From positions 496,001 to 560,000 of the forward strand of contig NZ_QJTE01000002.1 of the NCBI RefSeq assembly GCF_003217255.1: DNA of 64,000 nucleotides. The letters run 5' to 3'. Below, one piece after another: positions 5,522 through 33,855 of the stretch. The notes under the pieces were generated by a model. The model searched no databases. It had not been told where the DNA came from and saw nothing but the letters and a program-made list of their open reading frames with translations. The position numbers and the translations under genes were made by a program. Source of the stretch: Pseudoroseicyclus aestuarii. Its GTDB lineage: Bacteria > Pseudomonadota > Alphaproteobacteria > Rhodobacterales > Rhodobacteraceae. Each line of letters opens with the position of its first letter. The stretch's first letter is position 1.

Positions 5522-6721
5522 ATGACCAAGACAGACAGCCCCGCCATGCCCACGGGCCGCAGCGCCGCCCCGGCAGGCACGCGGATCGTCCTTTTCGCGC
5601 TGGCCATGGGCGGCTTCACCATCGGCACGACCGAGTTCGCCGCCATGGCCCTCGTCCCCTATTTCTCGGAAGGGCTCGGCATCACCGAGGCCTCTGCCGC
5701 CTATGTCATCGCGGCCTATGCGCTGGGCGTGGTGATCGGCGCGCCGCTGATCGCGGTGCTGGCCGCGCGGCTGCCGCGCCGGCGGCTGCTGGCGGCGCTG
5801 ATGCTGCTGTATGGTGCCGCGAACCTCGCCTCGGGTCTTGCGCCGAATTTCGCGTCACTGGTGGCGCTGCGCTTCCTCGGCGGGCTGCCGCATGGGGCCT
5901 ACTTCGGCATCGCCACGCTGCTGGCCGCCGGGATGATGGCGCCGGGCCAGCGCGGGCGCGCGATCTCGAAGATCATGATGGGGCTGACGGTGGCGACGAT
6001 CATCGGCGTGCCCGGCGCGAATATCCTCGGCCAGACGATCGGCTGGCGCTGGTGCTTCGCCATCGCGGGCGCGCTGGCGCTGGCGACGGCGGCGATGATC
6101 TACGCCTTCGCGCCGCGCGGCACCGGCACCGCCTCGGACCCCTTGAAGGAGCTGGACGCGCTGAAGAACCGGCAGGTGATCCTGACGCTGCTTTTCGGCG
6201 CCATCGGCTTTGGCGGCATGTTCGCCGTCTACACCTACCTCGCCTCGACGCTCGAGCAGGTGACGGGCGTCGCTCCGGGGATCGTGCCGCTGTACTTCTC
6301 GCTCTTCGGGGTCGGGATGACGCTGGGCACCTTCGTCGCCGGCTGGGCGACGGATCTGTCGCTGAACGGATCGACCTGGGGCGTTCTGGGCGGGATGACG
6401 CTGCTTCTGGCGATCTACCCCGCGGTGACCGGCAGCCCGCTGGGCATGGCCGTCATGGCGCTGCTGATCGGCGGGGCGGGGTGCCTGACGATCATGCTGC
6501 AGACCCGGCTGATGATGGTCGCCCGCGAGGCGCAGACCCTCGCCGCGGCGCTGAACCACGCGGCACTGAACGTCGGCAATGCGCTGGGGCCCTGGCTGAC
6601 GTCGCTTTTCCTGGCGGCGGGCTATGGCCTGCCCGTGGCCGGACCCGTGGGCGCCGTTCTCGGTGTCGCGGGGCTGGCGCTGTTCGCGCTGACGCTCTGG
6701 GACGAGCGGCGCGCGGGCTGA
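5522..6721 (+). CDS. MFS transporter, DHA1/AraJ-like exporter
   Basis: A 399-residue, 12-helix major facilitator protein. The first helix is at about 20-40 ([15 protein letters not shown]). The loop between helices 2 and 3 carries the basic RLPRRRLL segment typical of MFS motif A. A DxxG-like TDLSLNG loop lies in the second half. It resembles the DHA1 group that includes AraJ and drug or sugar exporters. I chose the ATG at 5522; the upstream extension is GC-rich, non-conserved-looking sequence. It is separated from the mannoside operon by a hairpin, so it is probably a separate unit. It converges with the DUF3035 lipoprotein gene; a dispersed GC-hairpin element lies between them. Substrate unknown. 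Confidence 0.85.
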
Positions 6722-9506: not shown

Positions 9507-11318
9507 CTACTCCTCGTCCTCGGGCCGTGCGACGTCGCGCAGGCCCTGCGGCGTATCCTGCGCCTTGGACAGGGTCCAGCGCACGCGCGTCGCATAGGCC
9601 ATCGCGCGGGCGGATAAAACCACCTGCTGCGTGGGCCGGGGCGCGGGGCGCCCGGCCTCGAGGTACATCGACCGCTCCAGCGCGAGGCTGGCGGCGCCGT
9701 CGTGGCGCAGGACCCAGATCTCGCCGTTGCGCAGCGCCAGCGCGACGGCGCTGCCGCCCTCGGCCTCGGCGGCATCGACATCGGGGTGCAGGTGGAAATG
9801 GATCGAGAAGCCCAGCCCCCTGTTGCCGCCCTGGCCAAGCATCTGGTCGAAGCGGCGGGTGTCGCCGGGGCTGAGCGTCGTCAGCAGGTCCTCGCCCGTC
9901 AGGCTGCGCCCGTCGCTCGACAGATCGAGGATGCGGGCATGGGTCAGGCCATGCGTGCGGCGCCAGCCGTCATGCGCCGTCTCGAGGCGCAGCGCGATGG
10001 CCTCCGGCTCGACGGGCACGGTGCGCGGGCCATCGGTCAGACGCTCGGCCCCGCCGCGCCCGGCCTGCCCGAAGCGCGCGGAGGAGTAGCCCTGCAGCGC
10101 CAGCGTGGAGTGGCTGGCCGTGGCGCGTCCGGCCTGCCGCCAGTCGGGGCCGAAGTCGCCGCCGGCGCCGCAATTGACGATCAGCGGGCGCCGCCCCGAG
10201 GTCAGCTCGAAGGCGAGGGTCGAGGCATGGGGCTCTGCCCCGCCGGCGCCCGAGGGCGGCGGCGCGGCATCGAGGATCAGCGTCGTGCGCCCGGCGCCGA
10301 GGCGAGCGTAACCCATGTGCAGCCCCGGCCCCGGCCGCGCCCGGCTGCCCGAGGCGGCCAGCGCCTGGTCGAGGCGGCCCTCGGCGCCGCGCCCGCCGCC
10401 GTGGAACCGCGCGAGGCCGCCGTCGGCATGGCGCAGCGCCCGCAGGGTGGCGGCGATGCGCCCCATCGCGAGGCGCAGCACCGGCGGCACGCGCCGCTCG
10501 GCGGAGACCAGCGCCTGCACGGTGCCGCCCAGAAGGGACAGGATCTCCAGCAGCGCCTCGGGGTTGCGGCTGTGGATCGCGCCTGTCTCGTCGATCCGGC
10601 GCGTCACCTCCTGCGCCAGCGCGCCCGTGGCAGGCTCTGCCGGATCGCCGATCCCCTCCAGCGACAGGCCGGCATGGATCAGCCCGGCCAGCGCCTCGAT
10701 CCGGGGCAGGCCGGGCTCGGCCCGTTGCCAGTGCCGGGCGAGGAAGGCGGTCTGCGCGCCCAGGCTGCGCAGGAGGCGCGCCCGCTCGTCCTCGGTGCAA
10801 CCGCGCAGCACGAAGGGCGCATGGTCAATCCAGCGCATCAGCCGCCGCGCCATGATGCGCGGCGCCCAGCCGGGCCCGCGGCCACCGCCGTAGCGGGCGA
10901 TCCAGCCCTGCAGCCAGTCCTGCGCCCGCCCCCGCGCCTGCGCCCCGCCGAGGGCGGCGAGATCCTCGAGCCAGGCAAAATCGTGCAGCGCCTCGGCGGC
11001 GGAAGCCTCTGCCGTCCCGATGTCCCAGATCGAGCGGCCTTCGAGCTGCACCCGCTCCCCCTCGATCAGGGCCCGCCCCGCGAGCAGGTCCCTGCCGCGC
11101 TCGAGGCTGCCGATGCTGCGCGGCTCGGGCGGGGTGGCAAAGCCGGTGGCGGCGGGCGCGCGAGCGGCGAGCCTGACCTGCAGGCGGTCCAGCAGCCGCC
11201 GCCGTCCGGCCCAGGCCGCGCCGCGCGGCTGCGCCGGGGCGCGGGCCCCTGCGGATGCCGCGTCCTGCGGCGGCCCGATCGCCCCGTCGTCCCTGCCGCT
11301 GCGCTTGCCGATCTTCAC
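9507..11318 (-). CDS. Heparinase II/III-family protein
   Basis: A 603-residue protein with the two-part layout of heparinase II/III polysaccharide lyases: an alpha-helical toroid in the N-terminal half (WLEDLAALGG, WIARYGGGRGPGW, RLMRWIDHAPF) and a beta-sandwich in the C-terminal half (FELTSGRRPLIVNCGAGG, TASHSTLALQGYSSARF, FSIHFHLHPDVDA). The HxHxHPD segment near 540 sits in the sandwich. No signal peptide is evident, unlike secreted lyases. In Rhodobacteraceae such genes commonly sit upstream of purH; the natural substrate is unknown. The start is GTG at 11318, supported by GGAG five bases upstream (GGAGACAAG-GTG). Confidence 0.85.
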   Translation of the reverse strand: MKIGKRSGRDDGAIGPPQDAASAGARAPAQPRGAAWAGRRRLLDRLQVRLAARAPAATGFATPPEPRSIGSLERGRDLLAGRALIEGERVQLEGRSIWDIGTAEASAAEALHDFAWLEDLAALGGAQARGRAQDWLQGWIARYGGGRGPGWAPRIMARRLMRWIDHAPFVLRGCTEDERARLLRSLGAQTAFLARHWQRAEPGLPRIEALAGLIHAGLSLEGIGDPAEPATGALAQEVTRRIDETGAIHSRNPEALLEILSLLGGTVQALVSAERRVPPVLRLAMGRIAATLRALRHADGGLARFHGGGRGAEGRLDQALAASGSRARPGPGLHMGYARLGAGRTTLILDAAPPPSGAGGAEPHASTLAFELTSGRRPLIVNCGAGGDFGPDWRQAGRATASHSTLALQGYSSARFGQAGRGGAERLTDGPRTVPVEPEAIALRLETAHDGWRRTHGLTHARILDLSSDGRSLTGEDLLTTLSPGDTRRFDQMLGQGGNRGLGFSIHFHLHPDVDAAEAEGGSAVALALRNGEIWVLRHDGAASLALERSMYLEAGRPAPRPTQQVVLSARAMAYATRVRWTLSKAQDTPQGLRDVARPEDEE

Positions 11319-28570: not shown

Positions 28571-29989
28571 ATGACCTTCGTCCTTTTCGTCAATGCGCTG
28601 ATCCTCTGCGCCGCCGGCGGCCTGATGCTGGTCGAGGGGCTGCTCTTTCCGCTCACGCGAGGGCCCTTCCTTGAGGCGGGAATGCTGGCGCTCTGCGCGG
28701 GCCTGCTGACGGGGCTCTGCGCCTCGCCGCGGCTGGAGGCGATGCGGCCTCTGCACACCTTTTTGCTGACGGCGAGCGTCTGGCTGACGGCGGGGCTGGC
28801 CGGGGCGCTGCCGCTCTGGCTTTGGGGGATGAGCTTCACCGACGCCGTCTTCGAGGCGATCTCGGGGATCACCACGACGGGATCGACGGTGATGACCGGC
28901 CTCGACGATACGCCGCAGGGCATCCTGTTCTGGCGGGCGCAGCTGCAGTGGTTCGGCGGCGTCGGCTTCATCGTCACCGGCATGGCGCTGCTTCCGGTGA
29001 TGCGCGTGGGCGGCATGCAGCTCTTTCGCACCGAAAGCTCCGAGCGCGGCGAGAACGAGCTGACCACCGCCACCCGCTTTGCCAGCGCGACGCTCTGGGT
29101 TTACTGCTCGCTCACCGCCGTCTGCGCCATGGTCTATGCGCTGGGCGGGATGACCGCCTTTGAGGCGGTGGTCCATGCGATGACCACGCTGTCGACGGGG
29201 GGCTTCTCGACCTCCGATTCGTCCTTCGGGCAATTCGCCAGCCCCTGGCTCCAATGGTCCGGCACACTCTTCATGCTGGCCGGCGGCTTGCCCTTTGCCT
29301 GGTACATCCACATCGCCCGCGGCGGCAGCCCCTGGAGCGAGCAGGTGACGGCGTTGCTGCGGACACTGGCCTTCGTGATCGGCGGGCTGACCCTCTGGCG
29401 CATGATCTCGGGCGAGGTCGGGCTGGAGCCGGCGCTGCGCGAGGTGGCCTTCAACGTCGTCTCGGTGGTGACGACGACGGGCTTTGCCACCACCGATTAC
29501 CTGACCTGGGGCGCCTTCGCGGCCACCGCCTTCTTCGTGCTGACGGCGATGGGGGGCTGCACCGGATCGACCTCGGGCGGGGGCAAGATGATGCGCTGGA
29601 TCCTGCTCTCGCGCTCCATCTCGGCGGAGATTGCGCGCATCCACCAGCCGCACAGGATCGACCGCATCCGCTACGAGGGGCGGGCGGTGGGGCAGGACCG
29701 CATCGACGGCGTGATCTCCTTCATGGGGTTCTTCTTCCTGACCTTCGCGCTGCTCTCGGTGGCGCTGACGCTGCTGGGCCTCGACATCGCGACGGCGACC
29801 AGCGGCGCGCTGACGGCGCTGGCGAATGTCGGCCCCGGCGTCGGGTCGATCATCGGCCCGGCGGGCACCTTCGCGCCGCTGCCGGACGGGGCGAAGTGGC
29901 TGCTGGCGGTGGGTATGTACGTCGGCCGGCTCGAGATGCTGACGGTCTTCGTGCTGCTGACGCCGGTCTTCTGGCGCGAGGCGACCTAG
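28571..29989 (+). CDS. trkH: TrkH-family potassium uptake protein
   Basis: A 472-residue ion-conducting subunit of the Trk potassium system in the inner membrane. The four pore loops of the MPM fold are visible: AISGITTTGSTVMTG, ATTLSTGGFSTSD-like MTTLSTGGFST, SVVTTTGFATTDY and ALANVGPGVGSI. The K-binding glycines are in place. ATG 28571 gives the family length; the longer reading overlaps rarA. The gating partner TrkA is not in the window. The TAG stop interlocks with that of the convergent LuxR-type regulator in CTAG at 29986-29989. Confidence 0.93.
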   Translation: MTFVLFVNALILCAAGGLMLVEGLLFPLTRGPFLEAGMLALCAGLLTGLCASPRLEAMRPLHTFLLTASVWLTAGLAGALPLWLWGMSFTDAVFEAISGITTTGSTVMTGLDDTPQGILFWRAQLQWFGGVGFIVTGMALLPVMRVGGMQLFRTESSERGENELTTATRFASATLWVYCSLTAVCAMVYALGGMTAFEAVVHAMTTLSTGGFSTSDSSFGQFASPWLQWSGTLFMLAGGLPFAWYIHIARGGSPWSEQVTALLRTLAFVIGGLTLWRMISGEVGLEPALREVAFNVVSVVTTTGFATTDYLTWGAFAATAFFVLTAMGGCTGSTSGGGKMMRWILLSRSISAEIARIHQPHRIDRIRYEGRAVGQDRIDGVISFMGFFFLTFALLSVALTLLGLDIATATSGALTALANVGPGVGSIIGPAGTFAPLPDGAKWLLAVGMYVGRLEMLTVFVLLTPVFWREAT

Positions 29990-30606
29990 AGCAGGTTGAG
30001 GTCGCGCCCCAGCATCGCGGCATGGGTCCGGTTGCGGGCGCCCAGCTTGCGCGACAGCGTCTTGACGTGCAGCTTCACCGTCACCTCCTGCAGCCCGTGG
30101 TCGCGCGCGATCTCCTTGTTCGACTTGCCCTCGGAGAGGCCGCGCAGGACCTCGGCCTCGCGACGTGTCAGGACGATGCGGCCGGCGCCATCGCCGGTGC
30201 CACCCTCTTCGGCGGGCGTCATGAAGCCCCGCGGCACGAAGACCTCTCCGGCGATCATGAAATGCACCGCCGCCACGACGGAGCGCGAGGACAGCGACTT
30301 GGGCAGGAAGCCCGCCGCCCCGGCCGCGAGCACGGAGGCGGCGACCTCGCGCGTCGCCCCGCCCGAGATGACGGCCACGGGCGCGCCCTGCGCCGCCTGC
30401 ATGGCATGCTTCAGCGGCTCGATGCCGGCCATGCCGGGCATGTGCCAGTCCAGAAGGGCCAGGTCGACGGGATCGCGGCCAGCCAGAACCTCCAGCGCGG
30501 AGGGCAGGCACCCGGCGCCGCTGACGGCGAAGCCGGCGGTCTGCGTCAGATAGGCGGCGAGGGTCTCTCGCACCAAGTCGTGGTCATCGGCGATCAGGAT
30601 GCGCAT
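29986..30606 (-). CDS. LuxR/NarL-family response regulator
   Basis: A 206-residue two-component output protein. The receiver domain (1-120) has the acidic pair in LIADDHD, phospho-acceptor Asp53 in LALLDWHMPGM, and Lys in FLPKSL. The C-terminal HTH (about 143-200) reads LTRREAEVLRGLSEGKSNKEIARDHGLQEVTVKLHVKTLSRKLGA. Divergent to it, 155 bases away, are the sulfite-oxidase-fold protein and hybrid kinase genes, so it is the likely phosphorelay target or parallel output. The stop shares CTAG with trkH, which is unrelated in direction but might be a target. Confidence 0.92.
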   Translation of the reverse strand: MRILIADDHDLVRETLAAYLTQTAGFAVSGAGCLPSALEVLAGRDPVDLALLDWHMPGMAGIEPLKHAMQAAQGAPVAVISGGATREVAASVLAAGAAGFLPKSLSSRSVVAAVHFMIAGEVFVPRGFMTPAEEGGTGDGAGRIVLTRREAEVLRGLSEGKSNKEIARDHGLQEVTVKLHVKTLSRKLGARNRTHAAMLGRDLNLL

Positions 30607-30650
30607 GGCCGGTCCTTTCGGTCGGAGACCGGGACCTATCCCTTTGGCTC

Positions 30651-30700
30651 TTAAGGGCGTCTGAACGGCTAGGGCAGGGGGTGCTTAAACCTTGCTTGAG
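30651..30700. promoter_or_regulatory. Two near-CtrA half-site pairs in the two-component divergent region
   Basis: TTAA-N7-TGAAC at 30651-30666 and TTAA-N7-TTGAG at 30685-30699 both fit the CtrA spacing with one core mismatch. They lie between the response regulator and the sulfite-oxidase-fold/kinase operon. They may instead be promoter elements. Low-confidence prediction. Confidence 0.3.
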
Positions 30701-30760
30701 AAAGAGGCTCTAGGACCGGACCCGCGGACATTTCCGTTTCGCCGCCCAAGGAGGGGTCTC

Positions 30761-31282
30761 ATGCTGCATTCGTTCAACTCGGCACGGCGGCTGGCGCTAG
30801 CCGCGATCCTCGCCTCCGTGCCCGTCGGGCCGCTCATGGCCGATCTGACTCAGCCCGAGGGGCCGGTGATCCTGACCGTCTCGGGCGCCATCGCGCAGAC
30901 GAACGGAGACGGTGCGGCGACCTTCGATCTTGCGATGCTCGAGGCGATGGACCCCCAGAGCTTCGAGACCGGGACGATCTGGACCGAGGGCACCAGCACC
31001 TTCACCGGCGTACCCCTGCGCCGCATCCTCGAGGCGGTCGGCGCCGAGGGCGAGGTGCTGACCCTGCGGGCGCTGAACGACTACTCCGTCGAGATGCCCA
31101 GCGAGGCGGTCGATGACAACGCGCCGCTGATCGCCTACGCCCGCGACGGCGCGCCCCTGTCGCGGCGCGACCGGGGGCCGCTCTGGGTGATCTACCCCTA
31201 CGATTCCGATGCCGCCTACCGCAACGACACGATCTACACCCGCTCGGTCTGGCAGCTCGATCGCATCGAGGTCGGGGGCTGA
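30761..31282 (+). CDS. Secreted molybdopterin-dependent-oxidoreductase-fold protein lacking the Mo cysteine
   Basis: A 173-residue exported protein with a signal peptide (ARRLALAAILASVPVGPLMA, cleavage near residue 27). The rest matches the small sulfite-oxidase-like domain: ILTVSGAIAQ, FTGVPLRRILEAVGAEG, LRALNDYSVEMPSEAV, LIAYARDGAPLSRRDRGPLWVIYPYD. In catalytic members a cysteine binds molybdenum; this protein has no cysteine at all. An AGGAGGGG site precedes the ATG. It is followed two bases later by a hybrid histidine kinase gene, so I infer a periplasmic ligand-sensing role for that kinase rather than catalysis. Confidence 0.82.
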   Translation: MLHSFNSARRLALAAILASVPVGPLMADLTQPEGPVILTVSGAIAQTNGDGAATFDLAMLEAMDPQSFETGTIWTEGTSTFTGVPLRRILEAVGAEGEVLTLRALNDYSVEMPSEAVDDNAPLIAYARDGAPLSRRDRGPLWVIYPYDSDAAYRNDTIYTRSVWQLDRIEVGG

Positions 31283-31284
31283 GC

Positions 31285-33855
31285 ATGGCGGCCCCACGCC
31301 GGCCCCGGCTGCCACGGCTGCGTCCCGCCCTTACCGTGGCGGCCGCGGCGTTGGCCCTCGTCGTTCTCGGCGCGATGACGCTGGACCTGCTGCGCAAGCG
31401 GAACCTCGAATCGCTGGTCCGCTCCGACAACGTGCAGTGGAACCTCAGTCAATTGGAGGTCGAGTTCCTGCGTCTGGAGAACGCGGTCATCGTCGCGCGC
31501 AACGCCGATGCCGAGCCTGGCCGCGCCCCCGACGAGGCGGACTTCGAGGCGATCCGTCGCTGGTTCGATGTCCTCTACAGCCGGGCCGCCTCGCTGGGGC
31601 AGGCGCCGATCTTCGACGGTGTAGCCGCCGAAGAGCATGCCACGGCGCTGGGCCTCTTGCGCGACACCCTCGATACCTGGGTTCCGCTGATCGACGGCAG
31701 CGACGCGGCGCTGCGGCGGGTGCTGCCCGGTCTGGCGACACGGATCGCGGACAGCCGGGACGAGATGCGTACCCTTTCGATACAGGGGCTGACCGCCTCG
31801 ACCGTCATGGCCGAAAGCTACCGGCGCGAGGTGGACGCCACGCTGCTCCGGGTCGGCCTCGGGGGGGTCGCGCTGCTCGCCCTTCTGCTGCTGCTTCTGG
31901 TTTCGACCCTGCGCAGCGGCCGTCGTGCCCAGATCAATGCGGATGCGGCGGGCGAGGCCTCGTCCCGCTACGAGGCGCTGCTGTCGTCTTCCATGGACGC
32001 GATCATCGCGACCGATTCCCATGGCAGGATCATCGAGTTCAACGCCACCGCGAGCCGCCTTTACGGCTGGCCCCGCGACGAGGCCGTGGGCCAGACGATC
32101 CAGGGTCTTCTGTCGCCGCCCGAACGCCGGGGTCTCGTGGCGAAAGCCTATGCAGAGCTGCGGAACGGCGAACGCCCGCCCTCGGAAGAGCCCGTGCAGA
32201 TGCTGGGTCTGCGCCGGGACGGCACGACATTCCCGGGCGAATGCCGGCTGCGAATCGCGCGCCAGGGTTGCGACATGCTTTTCGTCATGGCCGTGCGCGA
32301 CGTCTCCGCCGAGGTCGCCGCGAAGGAGGCGATGGCCCATGCCCGCGACGAGGCGCTGGCCGCCGCCAAGGCCAAGAGCGACCTTCTCGCCGTCATGAGC
32401 CACGAGATGCGCACCCCGCTGAACGGCCTTCTGGGCACGATGGAGCTGATGCGCGACGAGGAGATGACCGACCGCCAGCGCGACCGTCTGCGGATCATCG
32501 AGACCTCGGGCCGGCTGCTGCTGAGCCATGTGAACGACGTGCTCGACATCTCGCGCCTCGATTCGGGCAAGGTCGACCTCACCGAGGAGGCCTTCGACCT
32601 TGAGGCGCTGCTGACCGAGGTGGCGGAGGGGCAGCGCAGCCTCGCGCAGGCCCGGGACACCGAGATCACCGTCGCGCTCGACCCGGCGCTGCCGCAGTAC
32701 TTCACGGGCGATCCGATCCGCCTGCGGCAGATCGTCCTGAACCTCGTCGGCAATGCCGCGAAGTTCACCGAAGGCGGCACCGTGATGATCGAGGCCGAGC
32801 GCGGCCTGCCCGGCGAGGTGGAGCTGCGGGTGATCGACACCGGTTGCGGCATGTCGAAGCAGAACCTGATGCGGATCTTCGAGGATTTCGTCACGCTCGA
32901 CAGCTCCTACACCCGGACCTCGGGCGGCACCGGGCTGGGCCTCGGGATTGTGCGGCGGCTGGTGCGGGCCATGGGCGGCAAGATCGGCGCCGAGAGCGAG
33001 GAGGGCGCGGGCAGCGTCTTCACCCTGCACCTGCCCCTGCGCTCGGCCGAGCAGCCGATCGGCAGCGTCGCGGCCAGCGAGCCCGATCCGCAGGTGCCCG
33101 CGCGCCGGATCCTCGTGGTCGAGGACAACGAGATCAACCGCATCGTCGTCTCCGAGATGCTGCGCAAGGAGGGGCACGAGGTCACCCTGGCCTGCGACGG
33201 GGCCGAGGGCGTGGCAACGGCCCAGGGCGGGGGCTTCGACCTGATCCTGATGGATATCTCCATGCCGCGGATGGACGGCGTGACGGCCACGCGGACGATC
33301 CGCGGCACCGAGGGGCCCTGCCGCTTCGTGCCCATCGCGGCGCTGACCGCCCATGCCATGCCCGAAGAGATCGCCCGCTTTCACGAGGCCGGGATGCAGC
33401 ACGTGCTGACCAAGCCGCTCTCGCGCGCCGCGCTGCGCGACCTGATCCTCAGCGCCGGGACACCGCCCAAGGCCGAGGACGGGGAGGCCGCGGTCGAGAC
33501 CTGCCGTTCGGAGGTTGTGGACCAGGCGGTGCGCGACGCCTTCTACGCCGACCTCGGCGAGGACCGGGCTGGCGAGTTGCTCGAGACCTATATCGAGGAC
33601 AGCGGGCGCAGCCTCTCCCGGCTGGTCGAGCAGAGCGAATCGCTGCCCGCGCGGCAGCTGCAGGCAGAGCTGCACCGCCTTGCCGGCGCCGCCGGTCTGT
33701 TCGGCGCGGTCCGCCTGACCGAGGCGCTGCGCCGCCTCGAGACGCTGGGCAAGACTGGGCAGGAACCGGCGATGCGCGCCGGTGTCGCCCGGTTGCCCGA
33801 AATCTGGGAGGCGACCGTCACCCAGCTGGTCTCGCGCGGCTCCGCGGCGGCCTGA
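31285..33855 (+). CDS. Hybrid sensor histidine kinase (PAS, HisKA, HATPase, REC, HPt)
   Basis: An 856-residue membrane sensor. Order: transmembrane helix 1 (about 16-34), periplasmic helical region (35-190), helix 2 (about 190-212), PAS domain (about 228-345), HisKA with H373 in VMSHEMRTPLNG, HATPase (NLVGNAAKF, DTGCGM, GGTGLGLGI), receiver with D657 in LILMDISMPRMDG, and an HPt domain with H797 in ELHRLAGAAGLFGA. The internal receiver and HPt make a complete phosphorelay that could pass phosphate to the adjacent LuxR-type regulator. The signal is unknown; the preceding secreted protein is the likely partner in the periplasm. Confidence 0.93.
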   Translation: MAAPRRPRLPRLRPALTVAAAALALVVLGAMTLDLLRKRNLESLVRSDNVQWNLSQLEVEFLRLENAVIVARNADAEPGRAPDEADFEAIRRWFDVLYSRAASLGQAPIFDGVAAEEHATALGLLRDTLDTWVPLIDGSDAALRRVLPGLATRIADSRDEMRTLSIQGLTASTVMAESYRREVDATLLRVGLGGVALLALLLLLLVSTLRSGRRAQINADAAGEASSRYEALLSSSMDAIIATDSHGRIIEFNATASRLYGWPRDEAVGQTIQGLLSPPERRGLVAKAYAELRNGERPPSEEPVQMLGLRRDGTTFPGECRLRIARQGCDMLFVMAVRDVSAEVAAKEAMAHARDEALAAAKAKSDLLAVMSHEMRTPLNGLLGTMELMRDEEMTDRQRDRLRIIETSGRLLLSHVNDVLDISRLDSGKVDLTEEAFDLEALLTEVAEGQRSLAQARDTEITVALDPALPQYFTGDPIRLRQIVLNLVGNAAKFTEGGTVMIEAERGLPGEVELRVIDTGCGMSKQNLMRIFEDFVTLDSSYTRTSGGTGLGLGIVRRLVRAMGGKIGAESEEGAGSVFTLHLPLRSAEQPIGSVAASEPDPQVPARRILVVEDNEINRIVVSEMLRKEGHEVTLACDGAEGVATAQGGGFDLILMDISMPRMDGVTATRTIRGTEGPCRFVPIAALTAHAMPEEIARFHEAGMQHVLTKPLSRAALRDLILSAGTPPKAEDGEAAVETCRSEVVDQAVRDAFYADLGEDRAGELLETYIEDSGRSLSRLVEQSESLPARQLQAELHRLAGAAGLFGAVRLTEALRRLETLGKTGQEPAMRAGVARLPEIWEATVTQLVSRGSAAA

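Follow-up and report, generated by a model that had tools for sequence, protein, structure and literature searches.

A PruR-DTB protein-kinase pair and its probable partner regulator in Pseudoroseicyclus aestuarii and related Rhodobacteraceae

Results

We analysed a 64,000-nucleotide stretch of the Pseudoroseicyclus aestuarii genome (assembly GCF_003217255.1, contig NZ_QJTE01000002.1, forward-strand positions 496,001 to 560,000; hereafter the window, to which all coordinates refer), in which genes for a small exported protein, a hybrid histidine kinase and a response regulator lie side by side. The small gene, pruR (30761-31282, + strand), encodes a predicted periplasmic pterin-binding protein of 173 amino acids that contains no cysteine. 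Its ATG start is preceded by a AAGGAGGGG stretch, and residues ~1-27 (30761-30841, + strand) are likely a Sec signal peptide as judged from the sequence by eye, with low predicted local distance difference test (pLDDT) values at residues 1-7. The kinase gene (31285-33855, + strand; 856 amino acids) follows after a spacing of 2 bp. On the other side, across an intergenic region of 154 bp (30607-30760), a divergent gene (29986-30606, - strand) encodes a NarL/LuxR-type response regulator of 206 amino acids with Pfam Response_reg and GerE (helix-turn-helix, HTH) domains and D53 as the phospho-acceptor by alignment. A scan of 30550-31350 for sigma-70-like promoters and terminators found none.

The kinase is a multidomain phosphorelay protein. 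Residues 14-216 (31324-31932) hold membrane helices and an all-helical periplasmic domain of the DcpA type, followed by the Pfam domains PAS (residues 228-339; 31966-32301), HisKA (residues 363-428, with H373; 32371-32568), HATPase_c (residues 475-586; 32707-33042), a Response_reg receiver (residues 609-721, with D657 assigned by its LMDISMP box; 33109-33447) and Hpt (residues 764-843, with H797; 33574-33813), all on the + strand. AlphaFold2 modelled the sensor region as a bundle made up of helices throughout (pLDDT 89.7), and its two terminal helices have the length needed to cross the membrane. An initial annotation of this DNA, made from the sequence without database searches, had described a cysteine-free protein of the molybdopterin-oxidoreductase fold encoded two bases ahead of a kinase with a periplasmic loop, PAS, receiver and HPt, together with a divergent LuxR-type regulator. 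This gene-level description was borne out throughout, from the PF00174 match of the small protein (31.1 bits against a Pfam cut-off of 24) and the 31282 to 31285 gap to the domains of the kinase, the putative membrane-spanning helices around its sensor region and the two domains of the regulator.

The small protein belongs to the PruR family, for which crystal structures exist (7KOS, 7KOU, 7RKB, 7KOM and 7KP2). A phmmer search of solved structures (E <= 0.001) returned four matches, all of them pterin-binding PruR-type proteins (7kos, 1.7e-33; 7rkb, 4.1e-30; 7kom, 2.4e-20; 7kp2, 2.2e-19). With an AlphaFold2 model built from 57 alignment rows (pLDDT 89.3), PruR structures also headed the Foldseek list, with TM-scores (TMt) of 0.93-0.95 to 7kou and 7kos and, for Agrobacterium 7kou, 43% identity, a TMt of 0.94 and a root-mean-square deviation of 1.1. 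PruR proteins have no molybdenum-ligating cysteine and bind pterins in a truncated pocket through Asn102, Tyr104 and Trp160 (PMC13259868). In the 7kos alignment, N106, Y108 and W164 of the window's protein align at equal spacing with these Agrobacterium tumefaciens residues, and they are conserved in 56, 57 and 57 of the 57 rows, respectively; the invariant tryptophans of the alignment are W74 and W164. Since PruR binds small pterins, the lack of a molybdenum ligand is better read as no molybdenum cofactor (Moco) with a pterin ligand probable than as no cofactor, and the fold of the window's protein is probably not empty.

We also considered that the small gene might encode a sulfite-oxidase-type Moco enzyme that lies beside a kinase by chance, as its PF00174 match could suggest. 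Sulfite oxidase and YedY (MsrP) of PF00174 share the core fold, and sulfite dehydrogenases and YedY come after PruR in the fold search; their E values (4e-6 to 8e-4) are at least 10 orders of magnitude worse. The window's protein, unlike these enzymes, has no cysteine ligand, is about half their size and is not expected to have a Moco-sized pocket, and a cysteine past residue 30 is found in just 2 of the 57 PruR rows. The genome moreover holds two other PF00174 proteins, strong matches in frames of 282 and 314 amino acids, as expected of real enzymes of the family. With pterin-binding PruR proteins as the closest structures, we rejected the enzyme reading, which is very hard to credit. The earlier idea that an enzyme fold had been turned into a sensor accessory was right in kind, as the cysteine-free fold does have a conserved kinase neighbour (see below), although this use of the fold had already been described as PruR.

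The kinase in turn has the hallmarks of a PruR partner. In PruR-DTB systems as described, with Ruegeria pomeroyi as an example, the gene after pruR encodes a kinase whose periplasmic domain is of the DcpA type and which carries a WX7E motif (PMC13259868). WX7E occurs exactly once in the window's kinase, as WNLSQLEVE from W52 to E60 (31438-31464, + strand), and over 51 kinase rows the tryptophan is kept in 49 and the final position is always acidic (E in 40, D in 11). A profile built on the periplasmic domains of Rhodobacteraceae kinases matched PruR-linked proteins of three other loci, L113 (E 1.5e-12), L112 (2e-11) and L106 (1.5e-7), which are GGDEF-EAL proteins by Pfam; the sensor domain is therefore common to the kinase and to DcpA-type cyclases/phosphodiesterases. 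A fold search with the periplasmic model returned four-helix sensor bundles, all as weak matches that did not fall below an E value of 0.001. Based on the PruR match and the WX7E kinase match to described systems, the locus is a member of the described kind, that is, a PruR-DTB system with kinase domains similar to TorS/BaeS in place of GGDEF/EAL. The view that the system is poorly described was not sustained, given the crystal structures of the PruR family and the PruR-DTB pairs named in PMC13259868.

The neighbourhood of this fold beside kinases was surveyed, as the initial annotation had suggested. Related loci were found with the small protein alone (56 loci, nearly all in Rhodobacteraceae genera; L001-L003 and L060 were left out), and 50 of the 56 have a DTB-type kinase gene, complete or cut short, directly after pruR. 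Among these kinases, 46 match the sensor region of the window's kinase by BLAST and four (L053 and L057-L059) were assigned by WX7E and kinase boxes. Because the loci were collected with the small protein alone, this pairing is above chance: the pair is conserved, and the cysteine-free protein very probably works together with the adjoining sensor kinase. Across 40 PruR loci of other families, the next gene was a kinase match in 29, a GGDEF-motif protein without a kinase match in 6 (three GGDEF-EAL cases outside the family were confirmed by Pfam) and ambiguous in 5. In overlapping genome samples, PruR was present in 121 of the 199 taken at family level, 58 of the 289 at class level and 73 of the 397 at phylum level. 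Six of the 56 loci have no kinase next to pruR: the next gene belongs to no family in L019 and L034 and encodes a receiver (REC)-SpoIIE protein in L040 and SelO in L014, L015 and L032. The SelO genes, for a protein adenylyltransferase, after kinase-less PruR homologues point to a possible second use of PruR.

The divergent regulator is conserved along with the pair. D7, D8, D53 and K103 are invariant over 45 regulator rows, and 44 of the 56 loci have an upstream homologue in opposite orientation; in 20 further family loci from a sample of 199 genomes (one per genus), 15 have the regulator within the locus, one of them on the same strand. After two of the 76 family loci were removed as lying on the same contigs as others (L071 with L034, L074 with L031), 74 unique loci remained, in which a regulator was nearby in 58 of 67 kinase-bearing and 0 of 7 kinase-less loci (Fisher 6e-6). 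Together with the genome sample that follows, this gives independent support to the earlier proposal of a LuxR-type regulator as third component. For the genome sample we used strong PruR hits (E down to 1.1e-40, 116 rows, weaker ones dropped) and a profile built from pruR-linked regulators, which gave at least 150 matches, 150 of them listed. Among the matches listed, a regulator lay within 6 kb of 89 of the 116 strong PruR hits, forming 89 linked pairs in 78 genomes; 86 of these regulators were upstream and divergent (86 of 116 hits) and 67 were within 500 bp. Among the same listed matches, strong PruR hits and the regulator occurred together in 93 genomes, strong PruR hits alone in 4, the regulator alone in 14 and neither in 88. 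The only full-length match of the profile in the P. aestuarii genome is the window's regulator (287.5 bits, next 58.4). Some genomes carry two PruR clusters, each with its own regulator (for example G005, G046, G067, G154, G157, G161, G170 and G175).

Outside the family, the regulator was upstream in 0 of 40 PruR loci, and one relative of 166 bits lies 4.8 kb downstream in L108. In two of these loci (L081 and L098), the gene after the DTB kinase codes instead for a response regulator of the NtrC type (a sigma-54 activator), so the type of cognate regulator seems to differ between lineages.

Divergent regions between pruR and the regulator are rich in dyads, for instance TATCC-N4-GGATA and ACCTA-N10-TAGGT. 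The full palindrome in relatives is ACCTATCC-N4-GGATAGGT, scored over 16 positions. Where the regulator gene is separate from pruR, all 20 loci have a match of at least 11/16 ahead of pruR (mean 14.75, against 9.35 for shuffles), as do 16 of the 20 regions ahead of these regulators themselves. Matches at this level also occur in 21 of 38 shared pruR-regulator gaps, that of the window among them, and in 7 of 17 loci that have no divergent regulator upstream (L064, with its same-strand regulator, is counted in this group). At 13/16 or better there were 74 matches in 865 kb of the 74 family loci versus 2 for a reversed control pattern, and 0 matches in 488 kb of the 40 loci outside the family. 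A count over 25 genomes, picked because of their clusters, gave 65 sites with at most two mismatches versus 6 for the control; 37 of the 65 fall within 6 kb of a pruR, a zone that makes up ~0.4% of the sequence. Among the other 28 sites, a recurring ACCTATCCCGACGGCTCGGT type reads as MORN-repeat coding sequence, judged from one frame in this genome (L136, G000:C3 near 128417); such sequence mimics the palindrome and accounts for the off-cluster matches at least in part, and we rejected this type as operators.

The palindrome also varies together with the regulator. In the 300 bp before pruR, the fifth position of the half-site and its mirror are C/G in 29 loci, A/T in 15 and mixed (C/T or A/G) in 6; the classes are thus largely symmetrical (Fisher 9.5e-8), with a mild bias from templates that are themselves symmetrical. 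Residue 177 of the regulator, between the invariant T176 and K178 of the HTH, is Val in 26 loci and Ile in 1 with C/G sites, and Val in 3 and Ile in 11 with A/T sites (Fisher 1.3e-6, phylogeny not corrected). This tracking fits recognition of the palindrome by the regulator, and ACCTATCC-N4-GGATAGGT is likely an operator in relatives. The palindrome could instead belong to another transcription factor, such as a global polysaccharide regulator: binding by the NarL-type regulator is read from sequence, and good sites also stand in L012, L034 and L028, loci with no regulator nearby (L028 has little sequence upstream). We regard this as decidedly improbable, as the palindrome is missing from the 40 loci of other families where the regulator was not found upstream, is also located at the regulator's own gene, and has a site class that goes with residue 177.

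Some family loci offer candidate targets for such an operator. Exopolysaccharide relatives (a WecG/sugar-transferase fusion, GalU, outer-membrane polysaccharide export protein (OPX), a Wzz-like protein and a flippase) were found in 22 of the 74 family loci, with two or more in 15. In L052, palindromes are located at 2620 before a Wzz-like gene (start 2580:-), at 5833 before pruR, and at 10280 between the OPX gene (start 10194:-) and a flippase frame (start 10394:+). Eight family loci (L017, L022, L024, L033, L036, L039, L040 and L043) carry REC-SpoIIE, STAS, HATPase_c_2 and DUF3131 genes, with palindromes before the SpoIIE gene in L022 and L039. The REC-SpoIIE phosphatase also adjoins PruR clusters outside the family (L095 and L102), as a recurring partner-switching output.

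Discussion

The best explanation of the locus, and a probable one, is a PruR-DTB signalling module that has a response regulator of its own. By this explanation, PruR would be exported and bind a pterin in the reduced-size pocket of its sulfite-oxidase fold, as its conserved residues and the biochemistry of PruR suggest. Pterin-loaded PruR might then dock on the helical periplasmic domain of the kinase through the WX7E region, by analogy with the interaction reported for PruR and DcpA (PMC13259868, section 7), and docking would shift the kinase/phosphatase balance. Phosphate would pass from H373 to D657, H797 and D53 of the divergent NarL-type regulator, a path suggested by the observed domain order. 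In relatives, the regulator would most likely bind the palindromes, which are observed ahead of three kinds of genes: pruR-dtb, the neighbours of the regulator itself, and those for exopolysaccharide or partner switching.

Several observations weigh against this explanation. The whole mechanism is built on sequence and predicted structure, 9 of the 67 kinase loci have no regulator nearby (one of these has just 629 bp upstream), and 61 of the 150 regulator matches listed do not adjoin a strong PruR hit. The statistics carry no correction for phylogeny, and linked regulators were the source of the regulator profile. The window retains a half-site only, the candidate operator remnant ACCTATCCCTTTGGCTCTTA (30634-30653, + strand), whose left half is perfect and right half poor (11/16; shuffle fraction ~0.10, not significant alone), and the palindrome in this genome is not above control (5 matches with 3 mismatches versus 4). 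A search of the genome for PruA/FolM with NF006597 reached 129.2 bits at best against a cut-off of 281, NF005066 and NF006598 not being searched. No exopolysaccharide relatives were matched in the window.

One alternative is a divergent regulator that is not cognate to the PruR-DTB pair, the Hpt domain feeding another receiver and the regulator standing nearby for other reasons. The kinase loci that lack the regulator, its unlinked matches and the 14 genomes with a regulator and no strong PruR row would suit such an arrangement. Linkage far above chance in a fixed divergent arrangement, the absence of the regulator from kinase-less loci, and the several genomes with two clusters that each have their own regulator all argue for a cognate partner, and we consider a non-cognate regulator unlikely.

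The PruA result bears on the ligand. The best match to E. coli FolM in the genome (31% identity) is an ordinary short-chain dehydrogenase/reductase beside an alcohol/polyol-dehydrogenase-like gene, and a FolB-domain search found one protein. With no PruA/FolM above the cut-off tested, this organism may be unable to make the reduced pterin of Agrobacterium, and another pterin may replace it. Alternatively, PruR could be a kinase accessory with a non-pterin ligand or none, a reading favoured by the same want of a PruA match above cut-off and by the uncertainty of the cognate ligand even for Agrobacterium PruR (PMC13259868, section 9). The near-complete conservation of the pterin pocket points the other way, as do the PruR-DcpA pairs that exist without PruA in Vibrio cholerae (PMC13259868), and a PruR that works without a pterin is in our judgement distinctly unlikely.

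As for the output of the module, we place even weight for and against a broader proposal: that the Rhodobacteraceae PruR-DTB system is a complete pterin-responsive phosphorelay whose dedicated NarL-type regulator would recognise ACCTATCC-N4-GGATAGGT or CTATAC-N4-GTATAG and directly control either exopolysaccharide genes (chain-length, export and flippase units) or a REC-SpoIIE/STAS/anti-sigma partner switch. Given the half-site and the lack of a genome-wide excess, the operator proposal concerns the clusters of the family and not the P. aestuarii genome. REC-SpoIIE, STAS and DUF3131 genes were not matched in the window either, and for the WecG/sugar-transferase fusion the rest of the genome holds partial relatives only.

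Among the closest known systems is that of the DTB protein of Ruegeria pomeroyi DSS-3 (WP_011045932.1), from the same bacterial family, in which pruR is directly followed by a DcpA-type/WX7E kinase with PAS, HisKA, HATPase and receiver domains (PMC13259868). The window's kinase differs in its Hpt domain, none being listed for the Ruegeria protein in the legend of Figure 5 of that paper, and in the conserved divergent response regulator, which is not mentioned for Ruegeria in the parts of the paper that treat PruR-DTB. The PruR-DcpA pair of A. tumefaciens (7KOS, 7KOU) shares a 43% identical PruR, the fold, the pocket residues, the gene order and, through the GGDEF-EAL proteins beside PruR in other genomes, a related partner periplasmic domain. 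Its GGDEF/EAL output (cyclic di-GMP cyclase/phosphodiesterase) is replaced here by a phosphorelay kinase, and the genome has no clear PruA. Over its cytoplasmic part, the window's kinase has TorS (TIGR02956) as best NCBIfam match. The TorS-TorT system has the same arrangement, with a hybrid kinase of the TorS type taking its signal from a binding protein in the periplasm; the kinase here is below the TorS cut-off (388 versus 676.5 bits), however, and the accessory fold is unrelated to TorT.

The PruR-DTB pair is thus already known, and the link to the regulator and the candidate operator are the additions of this analysis. 'PruR-DTB' and related terms were found in one paper of the literature searched (PMC13259868), in which 'response regulator' occurs 0 times; this review counts PruR-DTB systems and assigns no output in its PruR sections. 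No description of the regulator or of the palindrome site was found in the literature searched, a comparison that did not include the original PruR paper, which may mention the regulator. A conserved regulator and a predicted operator make the output of the pterin kinase directly testable in culturable Rhodobacteraceae. With sites before polysaccharide genes, transcription would be a second route from pterin signals to surface attachment, and extracellular pterins would, if the proposed output is true, govern attachment through transcription as a counterpart of the cyclic di-GMP route of Agrobacterium.

At the edge of the locus, the 3' end of the regulator gene overlaps by 4 bp (29986-29989) a convergent frame ending at 29989 on the + strand, which we take to resemble a TrkH-type potassium transporter.

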